From Orenia marismortui DSM 5156 (GTDB taxonomy: Bacteria > Bacillota > Halanaerobiia > Halobacteroidales > Halobacteroidaceae), in the NCBI RefSeq assembly GCF_000379025.1, contig NZ_KB900621.1, positions 53,928 to 117,927 on the forward strand: a stretch of 64,000 bases of DNA, given 5' to 3'. How positions within the stretch are numbered: the stretch's first letter is position 1; each line of letters starts with the position of its first letter. The translations under genes were made by a program, and so were the position numbers. This document shows positions 3,268 through 49,458 of this stretch, in pieces. The notes below the pieces were generated by a model that was not told where the DNA came from, searched no databases, and worked only from the letters and a program-made list of their open reading frames with translations.

Positions 3268-3303
3268 AGAAGTATAAAGTATAATAAACAAAATAAAATA
3301 CAA

Positions 3304-3375
3304 GATTATATAACTGGTGGATTACATGGAATTAACCATGGGGAAGTATAATCTTTAGTTAAATCGCCCACCTGG
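3304..3375 (+). ncRNA. ZTP (pfl-motif) riboswitch aptamer
   Basis: The stretch fits the pfl/ZTP fold. P1 is GATTATA (3304-3310) with TATAATC (3347-3353). Inside it is ACTGGTGG, a CATGG/CCATG hairpin and the conserved GGGAAG. After a short linker comes CGCCCACCTGG. The known motif has a GGCGG/CCGCC pseudoknot; here it is GGTGG (3316-3320) with CCACC (3368-3372), a compensatory change that supports the structure. ZTP builds up when 10-formyl-THF is short, and pfl genes are classic targets, which fits pflB downstream. The 3' pseudoknot strand is shared with the terminator that follows, implying ligand-dependent antitermination. Confidence 0.85.
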
Positions 3376-3407
3376 ATAATAAATATTCATTATCCAGGTG
3401 GGTTTTT
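3367..3407 (+). terminator. Terminator of the ZTP riboswitch
   Basis: A 14-bp perfect stem (3367-3380 with 3389-3402, starting CCCACCTGG) has an 8-nt loop and ends in TTTTT. Its left arm contains the CCACC that would otherwise form the aptamer pseudoknot. The group II intron starts at the end of the T run. Confidence 0.9.
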
Positions 3408-5472
3408 GTGTGTGCCTCGTAGATTTAGTAAACAGTAGGTGAAAATCCTATCCATGCTGTTTTCGCCAGTACGGTGTGTGAAATCAACAGTAGCAGGGTG
3501 TCTACCGTGAGGTAGAATCTGAAGAGTTTGAGATGAGCAATCAGTCCGGAACAATATGTGAACCAGAGGTGGCATTTAGCTTTGGCGACCCGCCATAAAA
3601 ACGGGGAAGTCCAATGTTAGCTTGGGGCTCTGTACAAAGGAGAGACAGGTAGCGCTGGTAAATACGTGTAACTGGAAGTGCCCATGTTAGAAAACTAGGT
3701 GTGATTAGGGTCGGAATGATTGTAGGGTTTACGTAATTGACCGAGGGAATCTCTAATATAATTCTTTATAGAAATCTATAGAGATAAGTGATGGTATAAC
3801 TCCAACAGGAAAGCCAGAGTGATGATATATTAGAGTTCAGAAGATATCATAGTAGTGAGAAAAAAATCAACGAAAGTTGATTATAGCGAAGGATATCTAG
3901 GTTATTGAAGTTTAAGATTTGATTACTAATGATATCTTAATTTTGAGTGGTTTAAACACTAGTACTATAGTGGGTTCTAGTAGAATTACAAACAGGAAAT
4001 CATAACTGTAAAGTATGGATAACCTAGAGAACACCATAACCTAAGTAATGGTAAACTGAGAGGTGCGATTGGTGAGAGCTTAGAGACGTGCTCAGGAGTG
4101 CTATGAATATAGGGATTAAGATATTAAGGTGAGACAGGAAGAACTAGTAAGTAGTGAAGTTAGGATAGGTGTTAAAATTTCGAACTCTATATAGTTTGAA
4201 GGATAAAATCACAAAGAAATTTCACTTATATATTGCAGGACAAAAAGTACTGGATAATGGTGGCTGTGGTGGAGTTGATAATGTAAGCATAGAAGAGTTT
4301 AAAAATAATTACAAGATGAATATGCGAGAACTTCATAGACAGCTGATAGAGAATACTTACGAGCCATTACCAGTGTTACGGACGTACATTTCCAAAGGAA
4401 ATGGAGAAAAGAGACCACTAGGTATTCCAGTAATCAAAGATAGAATTGCTCAACAAGCAGTGAGGCAAGTACTAGAAATATACTTTGAGCGAGAATTTTG
4501 TGAATGTTCCTTTGGTTTCAGACCTAATAGGTCTGCTCACGATGCGATAGAAAAGATAGAGAAATATAAAGAACAAGGTTACTACTGGGTGGTAGACGCA
4601 GACATTAAATCTTATTTTGATACTATAGACCATGAGTTATTAATGGATTTTATAGCGGAATATATAAGTGATGGTTGGGTATTAGATATTATCAGGTCAT
4701 GGCTGACAATTGGAGTTATGACTGAAGAAGGTAGAGAAGAAACTAGAGAAGGGACACCTCAAGGAGGTGTCATCTCTCCTCTATTAGCTAATATCTATTT
4801 ACATTACTTTGATAAGAAAATGACTCGTCGAGGTTACAAAATAGTCCGCTTTGCTGACGACTTTGTAATCTTAACTAAAAATAAGCGCAAAGCAAAGAGA
4901 GCGTTAAAAGTTACCCGTAAAATTATAGAGGATGAATTGAAGTTGAAACTTCATCCTCGTAAGACGGTAGTAACTAACTTTTATGATGGATTTGAATTTC
5001 TAGGATTCAAATTTCACCATTCTGAATACAAGAGACCTAAAGATAAAGCAATAACAAAATTCAAAAACAAAGTAAGAAAGATTACTAGAAGAACTAGACC
5101 TTTTCCTGTAGAAGTAATAATTGCAAAATTAAATCCAGTTTTGAGAGGTTGGGGTAACTATTTCAAGATAGGAAATGTGAAGACTTTGTTTACGAGGTTG
5201 GATAAATGGATTAGAATGAGAATGCGTTCGTTTATCGAAAAGAAAAAGGCGATAATGTATCAAAATTATCGCTTTTCAAATAGTTATCTAAGAGATAAAG
5301 GACTTCAATCATTACTTACTGATGTGCTCTAATTAAGGGTAAAATATACATCTATGGTAACATAGAGTCGAAGACTTACTCTCTGATAAGGAGCACCAAT
5401 AACCGAAAGCTGTATACGGGAAAACCGTACGTACAGTTTGACAAGGGGTCCCAGCCGTGAGGCTGGTCCTAC
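3408..5472 (+). mobile_element. Group IIC (bacterial class C) intron inserted at the riboswitch terminator
   Basis: The element begins GTGTG immediately after a terminator stem and T run, the known target of group IIC introns. The 5' end could be 3408 or 3410 because the GT repeat is ambiguous. The RNA half shows typical GGTGAAAATCC-type domain I sequence. An intron-encoded reverse transcriptase follows. Domain V is a hairpin at about 5407-5439 with the AGC catalytic triad and a GAAA-type tetraloop. Domain VI (about 5445-5471) ends in AC. The flanking exons read TTTTT and TTTATTATG, so removing the intron restores the riboswitch terminator T run. At about 2065 bp it looks full length. Confidence 0.88.
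4169..5332 (+). CDS. ltrA: Group II intron reverse transcriptase/maturase
   Basis: The protein helps the intron fold and splice and copies it into new sites. It has the RT palm blocks: the SFGFRPNRSAHDA segment near residue 114, the DADIKSYFDTIDH block near 143, GTPQGGVISPLLANIYL near 195 and the catalytic FADD at about 228-231. After the RT domain comes the X/thumb maturase region (RGWGNYF near 327). No HNH endonuclease domain follows, as expected for class C. Translation probably starts at GTG; a weak TAGGATAG precedes it. The 387 residues look complete, with no frameshift. Confidence 0.93.
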   Translation: MLKFRTLYSLKDKITKKFHLYIAGQKVLDNGGCGGVDNVSIEEFKNNYKMNMRELHRQLIENTYEPLPVLRTYISKGNGEKRPLGIPVIKDRIAQQAVRQVLEIYFEREFCECSFGFRPNRSAHDAIEKIEKYKEQGYYWVVDADIKSYFDTIDHELLMDFIAEYISDGWVLDIIRSWLTIGVMTEEGREETREGTPQGGVISPLLANIYLHYFDKKMTRRGYKIVRFADDFVILTKNKRKAKRALKVTRKIIEDELKLKLHPRKTVVTNFYDGFEFLGFKFHHSEYKRPKDKAITKFKNKVRKITRRTRPFPVEVIIAKLNPVLRGWGNYFKIGNVKTLFTRLDKWIRMRMRSFIEKKKAIMYQNYRFSNSYLRDKGLQSLLTDVL

Positions 5473-5631
5473 TTTATTATGATATAAAGATTTTAATTTT
5501 TTTTAAAGATAATTAAGTTCAATTGAACATTGATAAATTAATAACAAAAAATATTGTTTAAATTATCATTTGAATCTGAATTGTTTGAAAATTTTATTTA
5601 TTCACTAAAAAATTAAATTAATTGACTATAA

Positions 5632-8412: not shown

Positions 8413-9147
8413 ATGACTAAAGGCTGGATTCATTCAGTTGAAAGTTTAGGAACTCAAGATGGGCCTGGGATTAGATATGTAATTTTTACACAAGGGTGTC
8501 CGTTAAGATGTAAGTATTGTCATAATCCTGATACTTGGTGTATGACTGATGGGCAAGAAATTGAAGTTGAAGATTTACTGGATAAAATTTTACGCTGTAA
8601 AAGTTATATTGATAAATCCAATGGTGGAGTAACAATTTCAGGTGGAGAGCCAACACTACAGGTTGAATTTTTATCTGAATTATTAAGAAGATGTCAAGAG
8701 GAAGGTATTCATACAGCTGTTGATACTTCAGGTTATGTTGATCAAGATAAATTTTTAGACTTAATGCCAGATATTGATTTAGTATTATTGGATATTAAAC
8801 ATATTAATGATGTAGAACATCAAGAATTAACAGGGGTTAGTAATGAAAAAATATTAAAGACTTTGAAATTGTTAGAAGATAATCAGAAAAATTTTTGGGT
8901 TAGACATGTTGTGGTTCCAGGAATAAATGATAGTATTAAATATATTGAAGAGTTATCAGATTTATTAGAAGAATTTAATTATTTAGAGAAAGTTGAGTTA
9001 ATTGCCTATCATGAATTAGGAGTTCATAAGTGGGAGACAATCGGCTTAGATTATGAGCTGGCAGATGTAGAACCACCAAAAGAAGAAGATATGAAGAAGT
9101 TTAGAGATATATTTATTAAAAAAGGTATTAATACAGTGATTAAGTAA
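8413..9147 (+). CDS. pflA: Pyruvate formate-lyase activating enzyme
   Basis: This radical-SAM enzyme places the glycyl radical on PflB. The iron-sulfur motif CPLRCKYCHNPDTW has cysteines at 29, 33 and 36, the usual CX3CX2C positions for PFL activases. The SAM-binding ISGGEPTLQ motif lies near residue 76. At 244 residues it is the short form without the extra ferredoxin domain of other glycyl-radical activases, which supports PFL as its partner. GGAGGGG precedes the ATG. It is separated from pflB by a terminator and a heptad palindrome. Confidence 0.95.
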   Translation: MTKGWIHSVESLGTQDGPGIRYVIFTQGCPLRCKYCHNPDTWCMTDGQEIEVEDLLDKILRCKSYIDKSNGGVTISGGEPTLQVEFLSELLRRCQEEGIHTAVDTSGYVDQDKFLDLMPDIDLVLLDIKHINDVEHQELTGVSNEKILKTLKLLEDNQKNFWVRHVVVPGINDSIKYIEELSDLLEEFNYLEKVELIAYHELGVHKWETIGLDYELADVEPPKEEDMKKFRDIFIKKGINTVIK

Positions 9148-9253
9148 AGGGATATCAATATTTTATTTCTTTAATCATAAAGATTTGTTTTGAATATTAA
9201 TCTCTAGTTGTTGTCATACTAATATAAAAACATATAAATTAGGAGTGGCAGTT

Positions 9254-10090
9254 ATGATAAAAAAGAGGTTAGTTTTACTAATTATAGCTCTAATGCTTAT
9301 GCAATTAATTGGGTGCAGCGGAGGTAATAAAAGTAGTAATCAAAGTCAAAACAAGAGTAATCAGCCACCAAGTTCATTAGTAGATATTAGTATGACTGCA
9401 GATAAGATAATTAATAAATTGGAAGAAGAATATAAGAAATTAGAAGAAAAGAAGAAAGAACCTAATAATGAAACTAGTAAAGATCAGTCTAAAGAAAAGA
9501 AGAAAAAAGATAAAAAGTCTAATCCAGAAGATAAATCAGAATCAGAAAGCCAAGAAAAAAAGCAACTAGATAATACCTGGAAAAAGATAAATGAAGAAAT
9601 TAAAAGTTTGCATCAAAGTTGGAATAGTTATGAAAGTAAAGAAGAGATGATTGAAGCAACACAAGTAAATATGATTGAAAAGGAATTAAATAGCTTAACA
9701 GAAATAGCAAGTGCTGAAAATATACTTGCATCTTTACTTAAAGCTAACCAATTTAACTTAACTATATCAGATTTATATGAGAATTATAATGGTAAAGCAA
9801 AAGGATATATAAATAAAATAGAGTCTTATGCTAAAGAAATAATCTATTTAAGCTATATGAATCAAAATAAAGAAAATAAAAATAAACAGTTAGAAGATTT
9901 ATCAAAAATTAAAGAATTGATTCCTCGACTAGAAGTTAAGTTTGAAGAAGATAAAAAAGCTAAAGAAAAAGTTAAGGAGTTAAAGAATGCAGTAAATGAT
10001 TTAGAACAATCTGTTCAAGAAGATATTAAGGAAGTAGTTAAAGTTAAGGGAGAAATGGTTGCTAAGAAGGTTAAGGAATTGAAAAAGTAA
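9254..10090 (+). CDS. Lysine/glutamate-rich lipoprotein, function unknown
   Basis: The start at 9254 (ATG) is preferred over the upstream GTG at 9245, because the latter lies inside the AGGAGTGG ribosome site. The protein begins MIKKRLVLLIIALMLMQLIG and then has a lipobox Cys near residue 21, so it should be lipid-anchored on the outer face of the membrane. The rest is highly charged, with Lys/Glu/Ser/Asn-rich low-complexity sequence (about 60-105) and long helical, probably coiled-coil stretches. I recognise no enzymatic domain. It is monocistronic between pflA and a strong terminator. Confidence 0.75.
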   Translation: MIKKRLVLLIIALMLMQLIGCSGGNKSSNQSQNKSNQPPSSLVDISMTADKIINKLEEEYKKLEEKKKEPNNETSKDQSKEKKKKDKKSNPEDKSESESQEKKQLDNTWKKINEEIKSLHQSWNSYESKEEMIEATQVNMIEKELNSLTEIASAENILASLLKANQFNLTISDLYENYNGKAKGYINKIESYAKEIIYLSYMNQNKENKNKQLEDLSKIKELIPRLEVKFEEDKKAKEKVKELKNAVNDLEQSVQEDIKEVVKVKGEMVAKKVKELKK

Positions 10091-10102
10091 TTTAACTACA
10101 AA

Positions 10103-10144
10103 AAAAGAGCAGATCAGAGTAATTACTCTGATCTGCTCTTTTTT
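10103..10144 (+). terminator. Terminator after the lipoprotein gene
   Basis: A perfect palindrome of about 40 nt centred on GTAATTAC has AAAAGAGC and GCTCTTTT ends and would work on both strands. Confidence 0.9.
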
Positions 10145-10310
10145 ATGTGATTTTTTATAGTAGAAGATTATAGAACAAGGATTTTTTTAGGTAGAGTAGA
10201 ATATAATTAAACGTGTCTATTTATAGAACAATAGTATTTTTATGGAATTTGGGTTAAGGCAGTGAGAAGAGATTTATTTAATTATTTTTAATTTTATCAT
10301 TTAATGATAA

Positions 10311-11669
<1,359 letters not shown>

Positions 11670-14368: not shown

Positions 14369-14397
14369 TTGACTAGAGAACTTTAATTTGTTATTAT
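14369..14397 (+). promoter_or_regulatory. Promoter of the purD-K-E leader
   Basis: TTGACT (14369-14374), a 17-nt spacer and TATTAT (14392-14397) lie about 23 nt before the guanine aptamer. TTCG (14356-14359) lies 9 nt upstream of the -35 box and TGAA (14326-14329) a further 26 nt upstream. The same spacing is seen before purB2. Confidence 0.7.
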
Positions 14398-14419
14398 ATG
14401 ACTGTAACAGTCGAATATA

Positions 14420-14488
14420 CCTCATATAATAGTGAGAATAAGGCTCACAAGTTTCTACCGGGTAGCCGTAAACTACCTGCCTATGAGG
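14420..14488 (+). ncRNA. Guanine-class purine riboswitch aptamer (first of a tandem pair)
   Basis: P1 is CCTCATA/TATGAGG, P2 GTGAG/CTCAC and P3 CGGGTAG/CTACCTG. Loops L2 (AATAAGG) and L3 (CCGTAAA) keep the GG/CC kissing pair. J2/3 reads AAGTTTCTAC, keeping both ligand-contacting uridines. J3/1 is CC: the ligand-pairing C74 is present, which indicates guanine or hypoxanthine. The preceding base, normally A73, is C (14480). The L2 GATATGG consensus is also altered. These changes could tune affinity or specificity. Confidence 0.85.
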
Positions 14489-14489
14489 G

Positions 14490-14716
14490 AAGTGTACCTA
14501 GGGTTCCGTACTAAAGAGCAATTGAAAATGTATAATTGAGAATTGATAATTTAGATATAATACCTTTAAATTTTTTAAGGCTTTAATTATCAATTGTTAA
14601 TTAGCAATTGTTTTTAAGTTGTCTGGTCCAAGCGGTACAGGTATTAATGTTTAATAGCTATACACTTAGCTGATTATATATTACACCGAAGGGATAAAAG
14701 CCCAGGCGGGGAGGTT
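14490..14716 (+). ncRNA. PRPP riboswitch (ykkC subtype) aptamer with an enlarged hairpin
   Basis: After the guanine aptamer come the conserved ykkC-family strings: GTGTACCTAGGGTTCCG (14492-14508), CTGGTCCAAGCGGTACAG (14623-14640) and ACACCGAAGGGATAAAAGCC (14683-14702), then CAGGCGGGGAGG. TGTAC pairs with GTACA to close the core. This layout, with purine-gene context and a guanine aptamer directly upstream, matches known tandem guanine-PRPP riboswitches. In those, PRPP favours expression and guanine opposes it. The peripheral hairpin between the first two strings is replaced by a heptad palindrome of about 90 nt. Confidence 0.85.
14519..14610. repeat. Heptad palindrome, AATTGAY family, inside the PRPP aptamer
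   Basis: The left arm reads AATTGAA, AATGTAT, AATTGAG, AATTGAT, AATTTAG. The right arm in reverse complement reads AATTGCT, AATTAAC, AATTGAT, AATTAAA. The arms pair around a CCTTTAAATTTTTTAAGG centre. The result is a long hairpin at the position of the aptamer's peripheral stem-loop. Confidence 0.8.
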
Positions 14717-14756
14717 CTACTCTGAGTTTAGTAGAAGTTCCCCTGCCTGGGTTTTT
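14698..14756 (+). terminator. Terminator of the tandem guanine-PRPP riboswitch
   Basis: CCCAGGCGGGGAGGTTCTACT pairs with AGTAGAAGTTCCCC and TGCCTGGG around an 8-nt loop and ends in TTTTT. Its left arm overlaps the 3' strand of the PRPP aptamer (AAAAGCCCAGGCGGGGAGG), so PRPP binding should prevent it from forming. Confidence 0.92.
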
Positions 14757-14829
14757 GTATTTAAATAAAGAATATGAAAGAATATTAATTTCATCGGGCA
14801 TAGTAAAATTATGAAAATGGAGGGGTTAG

Positions 14830-16095
14830 ATGAAAGTTTTAGTTATAGGAAATGGTGGCCGTGAGCATGCTTTAGTATGGAAGTTAAAACAAAGTAACAG
14901 AGTAGAGAAGATATTTGTTGCTCCGGGAAATGCTGGAACGAAAAATTTAGCTGAAAATATAGATATAGAGGCAAGTGATATTAATAAATTAATTGATTTT
15001 GTTAAAAAGGAAAAAATTGATCTAACAGTTGTTGGCCCAGAAGCTCCTTTAGTAACAGGAATAGTGGATGCCTTTGAAGCAGAGGGGTTGAAAATATTTG
15101 GACCTAATAAAGCTGCTGCTCAATTAGAAGGTAGTAAAGTTTTTTCTAAAAATTTCATGAAAAAATATAGTATACCTACAGCAAAGTATGAGACATTTAC
15201 AAATGTAGATAATGCAATTAGCTATATAAAAGAAGAAGGAGCACCTATTGTAGTTAAAGCTGAAGGGTTGGCAGCAGGTAAAGGAGTAATTGTAGCTCAA
15301 ACAGTAGATGAAGCTATTGCAGCTGTAGAGGAGATTATGGTCAATGAGAAGTTTGGCGAGGCTGGAGAGAGAATTGTAATTGAAGAATTCTTAGCTGGAG
15401 AAGAAGCAACGGTTTTAGCTTTTACTGATGGAAATACTATTGTTCCAATGATTCCTTCTCAAGATCATAAGCCTGCTTATGATGGAGATCAAGGACCTAA
15501 CACTGGAGGGATGGGAGCTTATGCACCAGCACCAATAGCTACAGAAAATTTAATGTCAAAGGTTTATCAGGAGATCTTAGTACCAACCATTGAAGGCCTA
15601 AAGGAAGAAGGTATTATTTTCAAAGGAGTTCTTTATAGTGGATTGATGGTTGTAGATGGAAAAGCGAAGGTGATTGAATATAATGTTCGTTTCGGTGATC
15701 CAGAAGCAGAGGTGGTATTACCTTTATTAAAAAATGATTTAGTAGATGTTATAGAAGCAACAATAGAAGATAGATTAGATCAAGTTGATATAGAATGGCT
15801 TGAAAAAACAGCAGTATGTGTAATTATGGCTTCAGGGGGATATCCAGTTAGATATGAGAAGGGAAAAGAGATTTCTGGTATAGAGGAAGCTGAATCTGAA
15901 GATATAGTAGTATTTCAAGCGGGTACTGCTTTAAAAGATGATAAGTTAGTAACAGCAGGAGGAAGGGTTTTAGGAGTAACTGCTTTAGGTAATGATTATC
16001 AAGATACTATCGATAAGGCTTATGAAGGGGTTAAGCAAATAGACTTTGCTGCTGCACATTATAGAACAGATATTGGAGCTAAAGCGGTTAAATAG
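14830..16095 (+). CDS. purD: Phosphoribosylamine-glycine ligase (GAR synthetase)
   Basis: PurD joins glycine to phosphoribosylamine with ATP, step two of IMP synthesis. The N-terminus (VLVIGNGGREHALVWKL) is the family signature. An ATP-grasp domain follows (IVVKAEGLAAGKGV near 140; GPNTGGMGAYAP near 225; the metal-binding EYNVRFGDPEAEVV near 282). At 421 residues it is full length and not fused to PurM or PurN as in eukaryotes. GGAGGGG precedes the ATG. It is the first gene behind the tandem riboswitch, so its transcription should respond to guanine and PRPP. Confidence 0.97.
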   Translation: MKVLVIGNGGREHALVWKLKQSNRVEKIFVAPGNAGTKNLAENIDIEASDINKLIDFVKKEKIDLTVVGPEAPLVTGIVDAFEAEGLKIFGPNKAAAQLEGSKVFSKNFMKKYSIPTAKYETFTNVDNAISYIKEEGAPIVVKAEGLAAGKGVIVAQTVDEAIAAVEEIMVNEKFGEAGERIVIEEFLAGEEATVLAFTDGNTIVPMIPSQDHKPAYDGDQGPNTGGMGAYAPAPIATENLMSKVYQEILVPTIEGLKEEGIIFKGVLYSGLMVVDGKAKVIEYNVRFGDPEAEVVLPLLKNDLVDVIEATIEDRLDQVDIEWLEKTAVCVIMASGGYPVRYEKGKEISGIEEAESEDIVVFQAGTALKDDKLVTAGGRVLGVTALGNDYQDTIDKAYEGVKQIDFAAAHYRTDIGAKAVK

Positions 16096-18081: not shown

Positions 18082-18114
18082 AAAATTGTAAAGAGGTTAA
18101 AAACGAATATTATT

Positions 18115-18187
18115 GCTCGGTATATCTGTAGGGATATGGCCTACACGTTTCTACCAAACGGCCTTAAACTGTTTGACTACTTGAGGA
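18115..18187 (+). ncRNA. Guanine riboswitch aptamer before purB2
   Basis: P1 is CTCGGTA with TACTTGAG (one bulge). P2 is TGTAGG/CCTACA, closed by the consensus loop GATATGG. J2/3 is CGTTTCTACC. P3 is CAAACGG/CTGTTTG with loop CCTTAAA. J3/1 is AC, so C74 is present and the canonical A73 is kept; the ligand is guanine or hypoxanthine. The strand after P1 (GAGAGTGACTTAGGGGATTC) resembles the start of the PRPP aptamer before purD, perhaps a vestige. Confidence 0.92.
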
Positions 18188-18209
18188 GAGTGACTTAGGG
18201 GATTCTAGA

Positions 18210-18259
18210 CCTAATTAAGCCTTCTAAATGTAGTCAAAGAAGGTTTAATTAGGTTTTTT
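18210..18259 (+). terminator. Terminator of the purB2 guanine riboswitch
   Basis: CCTAATTAAGCCTTCT pairs with AGAAGGTTTAATTAGG around a 12-nt loop and ends in TTTTTT. Guanine binding is expected to favour this hairpin. Confidence 0.9.
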
Positions 18260-18386
18260 GATTTAGAATATTATTTTTTAAATAGTTAAATATGTGTTAT
18301 ACATTGTAGTTATATAACTTTAATAAATTAGTTATTATAATATCTTGTTAATATAAAATTGAGTTCAATATATAAGGAGGAATAAG

Positions 18387-49102: not shown

Positions 49103-49178
49103 GGGCCATTAGCTCAGTTGGTAGAGCATCTGACTTTTAATCAGGGTGTCGGAGGTTCAAATCCTCCATGGCTCACCA
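49103..49178 (+). tRNA. tRNA-Lys (UUU)
   Basis: A 76-nt cloverleaf. The acceptor is GGGCCAT/ATGGCTC, the anticodon stem-loop is CTGAC-TTTTAAT-CAG with anticodon TTT, the T arm has GGTTCAAATCC, and CCA is encoded. Confidence 0.96.
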
Positions 49179-49185
49179 TTTTAAA

Positions 49186-49259
49186 TCAATTAACAATGTA
49201 TAATTAATAATTGATAATTAAAGGTCTTCTAATTATAGATTTTAAATTATTAATTATAA
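49186..49259. repeat. Heptad palindrome, AATTGAY family, between tRNA-Lys and tRNA-Glu
   Basis: The left arm reads AATTAAC, AATGTAT, AATTAAT, AATTGAT, AATTAAA. The right arm in reverse complement reads AATTTAT, AATTAAT, AATTTAA, AATCTAT, AATTAGA, around an AGGTCTTC-type centre. Confidence 0.75.
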
Positions 49260-49270
49260 ATTAATCCTAT

Positions 49271-49346
49271 GCCCCCATCGTCTAGTGGCCTAGGATAACG
49301 GGTTTTCATCCCGTCGACAGGGGTTCGAATCCCCTTGGGGGTACCA
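49271..49346 (+). tRNA. tRNA-Glu (UUC)
   Basis: A 76-nt cloverleaf with acceptor GCCCCCA/TGGGGGT, anticodon stem CGGG/CCCG around TTTTCAT (anticodon TTC), T loop GTTCGAATCC and encoded CCA. Confidence 0.96.
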
Positions 49347-49458
49347 AAATACTTTAAGATTTCACGAAGGGTTTTTGTTTTGAAAAACCTGAAGGGGTAC
49401 CAAAATAATTTATAATTACACGTAGTGCTTTAGATTTGTAAAACACGGAGGGGTACCA
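49337..49458. repeat. Two 56-bp tandem units carrying the tRNA-Glu 3' end
   Basis: GGGGTACCA recurs at the tRNA end, then exactly 56 and 112 bp later. The first two are followed by AAAATA and diverged but alignable sequence (TTTCACGAAGG versus TTACACGTAGT). The 3' terminus of tRNA-Glu has thus been copied twice downstream, as would happen by slippage or repeated recombination at the tRNA end. Confidence 0.7.

Follow-up and report, generated by a model that had tools for sequence, protein, structure and literature searches.

A guanine-PRPP tandem riboswitch in Orenia marismortui with a peripheral stem predicted to be lengthened by a dispersed heptad palindrome

Results

Organization of the purD leader

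In the present study, we analyzed a 64,000-nt stretch of the genome of Orenia marismortui DSM 5156 (3.46 Mb; the same genus as genome G002, Orenia metallireducens). This whole stretch is hereafter called the window, and positions refer to its forward strand unless otherwise stated. The region of interest is the leader of purD (14830-16095, forward strand; Pfam GARS_N, GARS_A, and GARS_C), which is followed by purK (from 16207; PurK_C) and purE (from 17450; AIRC). A consensus scan placed a promoter-like TTGACT-17-TATTAT upstream of the leader (14369-14397, forward strand; 10/12 matches, a consensus match only). The leader comprises, in this order, a guanine aptamer, strings conserved in PRPP (ykkC subtype 2b) aptamers, and a single terminator. 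The guanine aptamer core (14420-14488, forward strand) is covered by a match to Rfam RF00167 at 14402-14503, with a score of 83.6 bits (E = 1.4e-13) against a gathering score of 37. An intrinsic terminator, a hairpin plus U-run that represents the putative expression platform, was predicted by folding at about 14694-14758 on the same strand, and the region from 14489 to 14760 folded with z = -7.5. MicroRNA matches near the terminator were dismissed as chance hairpin matches.

The P1 stem of the guanine aptamer ends at 14488 and that of the PRPP aptamer starts at 14494, which leaves 5 nt between them (14489-14493); P1 stems are separated by 5-7 nt in described guanine-PRPP tandems (Sherlock et al., 2018; PMC5912903). 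Together with the one shared terminator and the purine genes purD-purK-purE downstream, this spacing agrees with a tandem guanine-PRPP riboswitch, and the corresponding proposal of a first-pass annotation of this DNA was thus borne out. Elsewhere in the window, another purine riboswitch, which has a terminator of its own and lacks a PRPP aptamer, is located at 18098-18260 before purB (18387). A ZMP/ZTP riboswitch (3300-3384) comes after purA and precedes a group II intron and its reverse transcriptase (4169-5477).

Parts of the PRPP aptamer

The 5' conserved string of the PRPP aptamer, GTGTACCTAGGGTTCCG (14492-14508, forward strand), contains the 5' strands of P0, P1, and P1a and is retained with small changes in orthologues, and its 3' counterpart, CTGGTCCAAGCGGTACA (14623-14639, forward strand), contains the 3' strands of P1a and P1, with GGTCCRAGCGRTRCA being present in 27 of 41 relatives. 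P1 is formed by GTACC (14494-14498) and GGTAC (14634-14638), and the pairs GTACC/GGTAC, GTATC/GATAC, and GCACC/GGTGC, as read by eye, suggest compensatory changes among orthologues. The 18-nt P1/P1a 5' segment was identical in all five leaders of the genus Orenia that were compared. The P2 hairpin was assigned by folding to 14640-14687 (forward strand; B-C distance of 58 nt vs. 19-36 nt in relatives); it is much longer in the window genome than in relatives and is not composed of heptads. A further conserved string, ACACCGAAGGGATAAAAGCCCAGGCGGGGAGG (14683-14714), matches orthologues and overlaps P3, GGGATAAAAGCCC (14691-14703, forward strand), of which GCCC is common to P3 and the terminator; a weak match to RF00442 spans 14636-14710. 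The 3' string of P3, GCCCAGGCGGGGAGG, is identical to those of orthologues. In the numbering of the crystallized sequence, G96 is the guanosine that confers specificity for PRPP rather than ppGpp.

The Rfam check that had been suggested for this leader gave the purine match described above, whereas a search of Rfam 15 found no PRPP match; therefore, the identity of the PRPP aptamer rests on the shared strings and on the ykkC relation. Guanidine-I (RF00442), a member of the ykkC family, was used as a stand-in model and scored 17 bits in the window leader vs. 48-54 bits in orthologues with a short P1b, to be read against a gathering score of 63 that was set for guanidine-I. The low score is the expected effect of a long insertion in a loop. 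The strings around P1, P1a, and P3 match orthologues on both sides of this insertion.

A heptad palindrome in P1b

The insertion lies between GGGTTCCG and CTGGTCC and consists of 114 nt (14509-14622, forward strand). The first-pass annotation had described a palindrome of AATTGAY heptads between TTCCG and CTGGTCC; the palindrome is indeed at this place, but its length had been given as about 90 nt. The fold, the heptad arrays, and the copies of the insert in the genome all bear on its assignment, and the extended stem pairs from about 14510 to 14619. Based on the sequence and a tandem repeat call, the left arm (14519-14549, forward strand) reads AATTGAA-AATGTAT-AATTGAG-AATTGAT, and the right arm (14583-14612, forward strand), its inverted counterpart, reads TTAATTATC-AATTGTT-AATTAGC-AATTG.

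Folded alone, the insert formed one hairpin of -25.9 kcal/mol (z = -4.3), as had been anticipated, and no pairing between the insert and the aptamer was found in the fold of the full leader. With the insert in place, P1 was still predicted with a pair probability of 0.96; since this value varied erratically among orthologues (0.00 to 0.97) whether their P1b was short or long, it carries little weight. In the crystal structure of the PRPP aptamer, P1, P1a, P1b, and P2 are stacked coaxially alongside P3, and much of the pocket is made by P3 (Knappenberger et al., 2018; PMC6031431). The insert site is taken to be the end of P1b in the naming of that structure, an assignment made from the conserved strings. 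P1b is peripheral, and its length varies from 9 to 131 nt across relatives; the palindrome is thus predicted to lengthen it and not to replace a core stem, contrary to the earlier view of a replaced aptamer stem.

The dispersed heptad family

The heptads of the insert had been likened to those scattered elsewhere, which was confirmed. With at most one mismatch allowed, AATTGAYAATTGAY occurred 8 times in the window vs. 0.39 expected and 106 times in the genome vs. 41 for the reversed pattern, and a BLAST comparison of the whole insert with the genome gave about 70 matches. The elements are palindromic: two arms, each several heptads long, enclose a spacer of about 20 to 170 nt. The P1b insert, composed of inverted arms of 7-nt units in the spelling of its own genome, belongs to this family. 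Seven was the most common array period in 5 of 7 sampled genomes of the salt-loving family Halobacteroidaceae; it was tied with another period in one of the remaining two, and the smallest sample contained no arrays at the threshold used. On a broader scale, a three-heptad AAYTRTN pattern was detected in 35 of 299 genomes of the phylum, with a patchy distribution over unrelated families and more than 100 copies in some genomes.

Spacers between tRNA genes are another setting of these elements. Eight of the 38 exact three-heptad loci in the genome are in tRNA-tRNA spacers, which account for 0.13% of its length, and 20 of the 35 tRNA-gene spacers that were read (at least 60 nt) matched the heptad at 18 of 21 positions or better, while several others of these 35 were palindromes in a second spelling, TAGCTAC/GGCTACT; these counts are not independent because certain clusters duplicate others. 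Among tRNA-gene spacers of about 92-127 nt in the window genome, the majority are heptad palindromes, with AATTGAT and TAGCTAC/GGCTACT as at least two spellings (e.g., 49176-49270 in the window; loci L245-L258), and another repeat of about 56 nt (CACGAAGGG...AAAACCCGAAGGGGTACC) also occurs in tRNA spacers (49338-49458 in the window; L257). The tRNA-gene spacers of related genera likewise hold heptad palindromes, and the P1b of purD and the tRNA spacers of Natroniella acetigena share one heptad spelling.

P1b in orthologous leaders

Heptad palindromes fill the P1b of purD leaders in six genomes of the family: 114 nt in the window genome and 114 and 126 nt in two further genomes of Orenia, 105 nt in Halonatronum saccharophilum, 115 nt in Natroniella sulfidigena, and 131 nt in N. 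acetigena. Short P1b stems were found in genome G005 (12 nt) and Halanaerobacter jeridensis (about 9 nt). The P1b of Acetohalobium arabaticum is also short. In the order's other family, P1b measured 11-24 nt, and in more distant families it measured 14-117 nt and was of non-heptad sequence. Based on this variation in lengths and contents, P1b may be regarded as a stem of free length, with heptads as one filling among others. The short hairpin for which a check of orthologous leaders had been proposed is present in Halanaerobacter and G005, and heptad palindromes are located there in Orenia, Halonatronum, and Natroniella. The annotation had also named a long unrelated hairpin, inherited by descent in orthologues, as an observation that would speak against an invading repeat; long hairpins do exist, but they are also built of heptads, in different spellings. 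Since two other genera and a paralogous xpt leader have heptad palindromes in the same position, the invasion is neither recent nor unique.

Spellings differ among genomes: AATTGAY in the window genome, ACTGTAA in G001 and O. metallireducens, AATATTG/AATAATG in N. acetigena, and AGTTGAT in Halonatronum. The inserts matched the repeats of the genome that carries them better than the repeats of other genomes (permutation p = 0.003, six genomes), with the qualification that G001 and O. metallireducens were thinly sampled and that their inserts were not best on their own genome in raw likelihood. Junctions are alike across genera, with CTTT after ..AACTG in O. metallireducens and the two Natroniella species and a left end near CARTG/CAATTG. 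An inner motif shared by the inserts, AAGGTTTTAA, was rejected as proof of common descent, being common to many elements in these genomes.

An RpoB tree had the topology (Natroniella),((G005, Halanaerobacter),(Halonatronum,(Orenia))), and most of its nodes were well supported; it was preferred for dating the gain to a PurD tree, which was unresolved at depth. The genomes with a short P1b are nested in the RpoB tree, and one gain plus one loss consequently ties with two gains. This tie leaves room for P1b as an insertion hot spot at which the palindromes of Natroniella, Halonatronum, and Orenia arrived separately from their own repeat stocks, as the spelling of every insert after its genome would also suggest. 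The similarity of junctions in several genera argues against separate arrivals, and homogenization, observed between purD and xpt as described below, would equally explain the spelling; we regard independent insertions as possible but rather doubtful. The similar right junctions lead us to lean toward one gain, and a single ancestral origin of the insert is inferred.

Exchange of the insert between purD and xpt leaders

In the window genome, another guanine-PRPP tandem precedes an xpt-like gene, which was recognized by eye from its first residues, and G001 likewise has such a tandem. In the quartet of purD and xpt leaders from these two genomes, the flanks (guanine aptamer, P2, and terminator segments) contained 29 informative sites that grouped leaders by gene and 1 that grouped them by genome, whereas the P1b segment contained 0 and 16, respectively (Fisher p = 1.7e-11). 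Within the window genome, the purD and xpt leaders were 90% identical in the insert vs. 71% in the guanine aptamer, 81% in P2, and 55% in the terminator. Since the flanks group by gene and the insert groups by genome, these alignments indicate that gene conversion or an equivalent process has exchanged the insert between the two riboswitches, conversion being the presumed molecular route. Two fresh, near-identical insertions are disfavored because the same base would have been hit twice, and conversion limited to P1/P1b explains the pattern.

Decayed PRPP strings accompanied by a retained guanine aptamer and palindrome were observed in a further G001 leader upstream of xpt and in the xpt leader of O. 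metallireducens, with GGGTTCCG altered to AAAGACAG; such leaders lie at 9950-10600 of locus L080 (minus strand) and at 8950-9600 of locus L120 (preceding xpt in O. metallireducens). As they keep the palindrome, carrying it says nothing about function. Two palindrome-bearing leaders with a decayed core, and the decrease in the ykkC model score to 17 bits with the long insert, might be taken to mean that the insert disables the PRPP aptamer and leaves a plain guanine OFF-switch. We consider this quite improbable for purD, the PRPP strings of which have been kept on either side of the insert across genera, as would not be expected of a dead aptamer, and in which P1 pairing is predicted to be intact and a low score is expected from the long loop insertion.

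The xpt insert differs from the purD insert by 11 substitutions and 9 indel positions, with a net gain of 7 nt. It has a folding energy of -26.7 kcal/mol vs. a mean of -19.5 kcal/mol after an equal number of random changes, and 4% of the randomized sequences were as stable. This stability was not read as selection because conversion itself may preserve pairing and because the insert pairs no better than elsewhere when windows are matched: the same repeats in and outside of the riboswitch showed no better pairing in the riboswitch (p = 0.98 and 0.60). A first signal of better pairing (p = 0.002-0.015) was rejected since unequal windows had included the native base of P1b and riboswitch copies had been left in the comparison set. 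The palindrome may alternatively have been recruited and selected, for example to bind a protein or RNA or to tune the speed of folding, and its retention across the family, its stability despite turnover, and the presence of similar palindromes in the majority of long tRNA spacers, which are likewise transcribed and structured, are in keeping with such a role. The matched windows speak against it, as do its absence from two genomes of the family (G005 and Halanaerobacter) and a primary sequence that is not conserved beyond the repeat, and we find recruitment unlikely.

Discussion

The purD leader of O. marismortui is, in our view, probably a guanine-PRPP tandem riboswitch with a P1b lengthened by a heptad palindrome that is tolerated, old in the family, and rewritten within each genome. 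Its architecture and the position of the insert are as described above, the insert is present across the family, and the insert has been homogenized within a genome. Tolerance rather than selection fits because the elements fold by themselves and their pairing is no better in the riboswitch than at other sites, and the insert is presumably neutral. From the conservation of the strings around the insert, we infer that the riboswitch is undamaged, and that ligand binding and switching would proceed as in other guanine-PRPP tandems, in which guanine favors the terminator and PRPP overrides it; an IMPLY-type response to the two ligands would be expected of such a tandem. With P1b directed away from the ligand pocket and free in length, a self-folding palindrome could be accommodated there as an elongated, stacked stem.

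The insert probably predates the split of Orenia, Halonatronum, Natroniella, and Halanaerobacter, and its sequence has since been rewritten inside each genome, presumably through gene conversion or through template switching to other copies of the repeat. This copying between repeats would hold the insert in the heptad spelling of its own genome, and the exchange between purD and xpt is a case in which it was seen directly. A broader proposal, which we offer tentatively and consider rather speculative, is that heptad palindromes constitute an RNA-compatible repeat system that prefers structured non-coding transcripts, namely, tRNA-gene spacers and the side stem of a riboswitch, and that is kept at one spelling per genome by a copying process sweeping dispersed sites, including two riboswitches at once.

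The leaders compared here form a natural set in which the side stem of one riboswitch ranges from 9 to 131 nt and is in part built from a dispersed repeat, so that native sequences may serve to test how well a structured RNA tolerates insertion. Furthermore, with their flanks grouping by gene and their insert grouping by genome, two riboswitches become a marker for the rewriting of dispersed heptad repeats.

Rickettsia palindromic elements are palindromes that insert into genes and stay there; they are known mainly from protein genes and are not known to form heptad arrays. They resemble the Orenia insert as lasting palindromes, while the latter is made of heptad arrays in an RNA leader. Heptamer direct repeats have been described as TAACTGA in Beggiatoaceae, cyanobacteria, and Bacteroidetes (PMC4679880) and as GGGAATC in Xanthomonas and GGGGATT in Nostoc (PMC4692102). 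Similar to the units in Orenia, these seven-base units occupy many intergenic places, and related genomes differ in detail; in contrast, those in Orenia form inverted arms with a spacer, have genome-specific spellings, and occur in tRNA spacers and a riboswitch. How dispersed heptad repeats are rewritten is a question that those reports leave open (PMC4692102; PMC4679880).

The pneumococcal trp operon offers a parallel for a dispersed repeat that has become part of a bacterial riboswitch leader: a BOX element is situated between two T-box riboswitches in a leader that apparently still works (PMC3049150). The BOX element thus lies between two riboswitches, whereas the repeat in Orenia is inside the side stem of one aptamer and is found in orthologous leaders across genera. 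A repeat inside an aptamer stem is not described in the relevant portions of the nearest published cases that were found (PMC4692102; PMC4679880; PMC3049150).

As in the tandems reported by Sherlock et al. (2018; PMC5912903), the guanine aptamer of Orenia is directly upstream of a ykkC subtype 2b aptamer, with one terminator and a purine-synthesis gene downstream; the Orenia leader differs from them in that a 114-nt palindrome belonging to a repeat dispersed in the genome makes up P1b and P2 is also lengthened, and the main text of that report, its alignments aside, makes no mention of repeat inserts of such a kind. The P1/P1a/P1b/P2/P3/P0 plan of the crystallized PRPP aptamer (Knappenberger et al., 2018; PMC6031431) is likewise shared, as mapped here by conserved strings, with the difference that P1b in Orenia is long and repeat-derived. 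The guanine-PRPP tandem itself is already known, and a long, repeat-derived P1b is a new variation on it.
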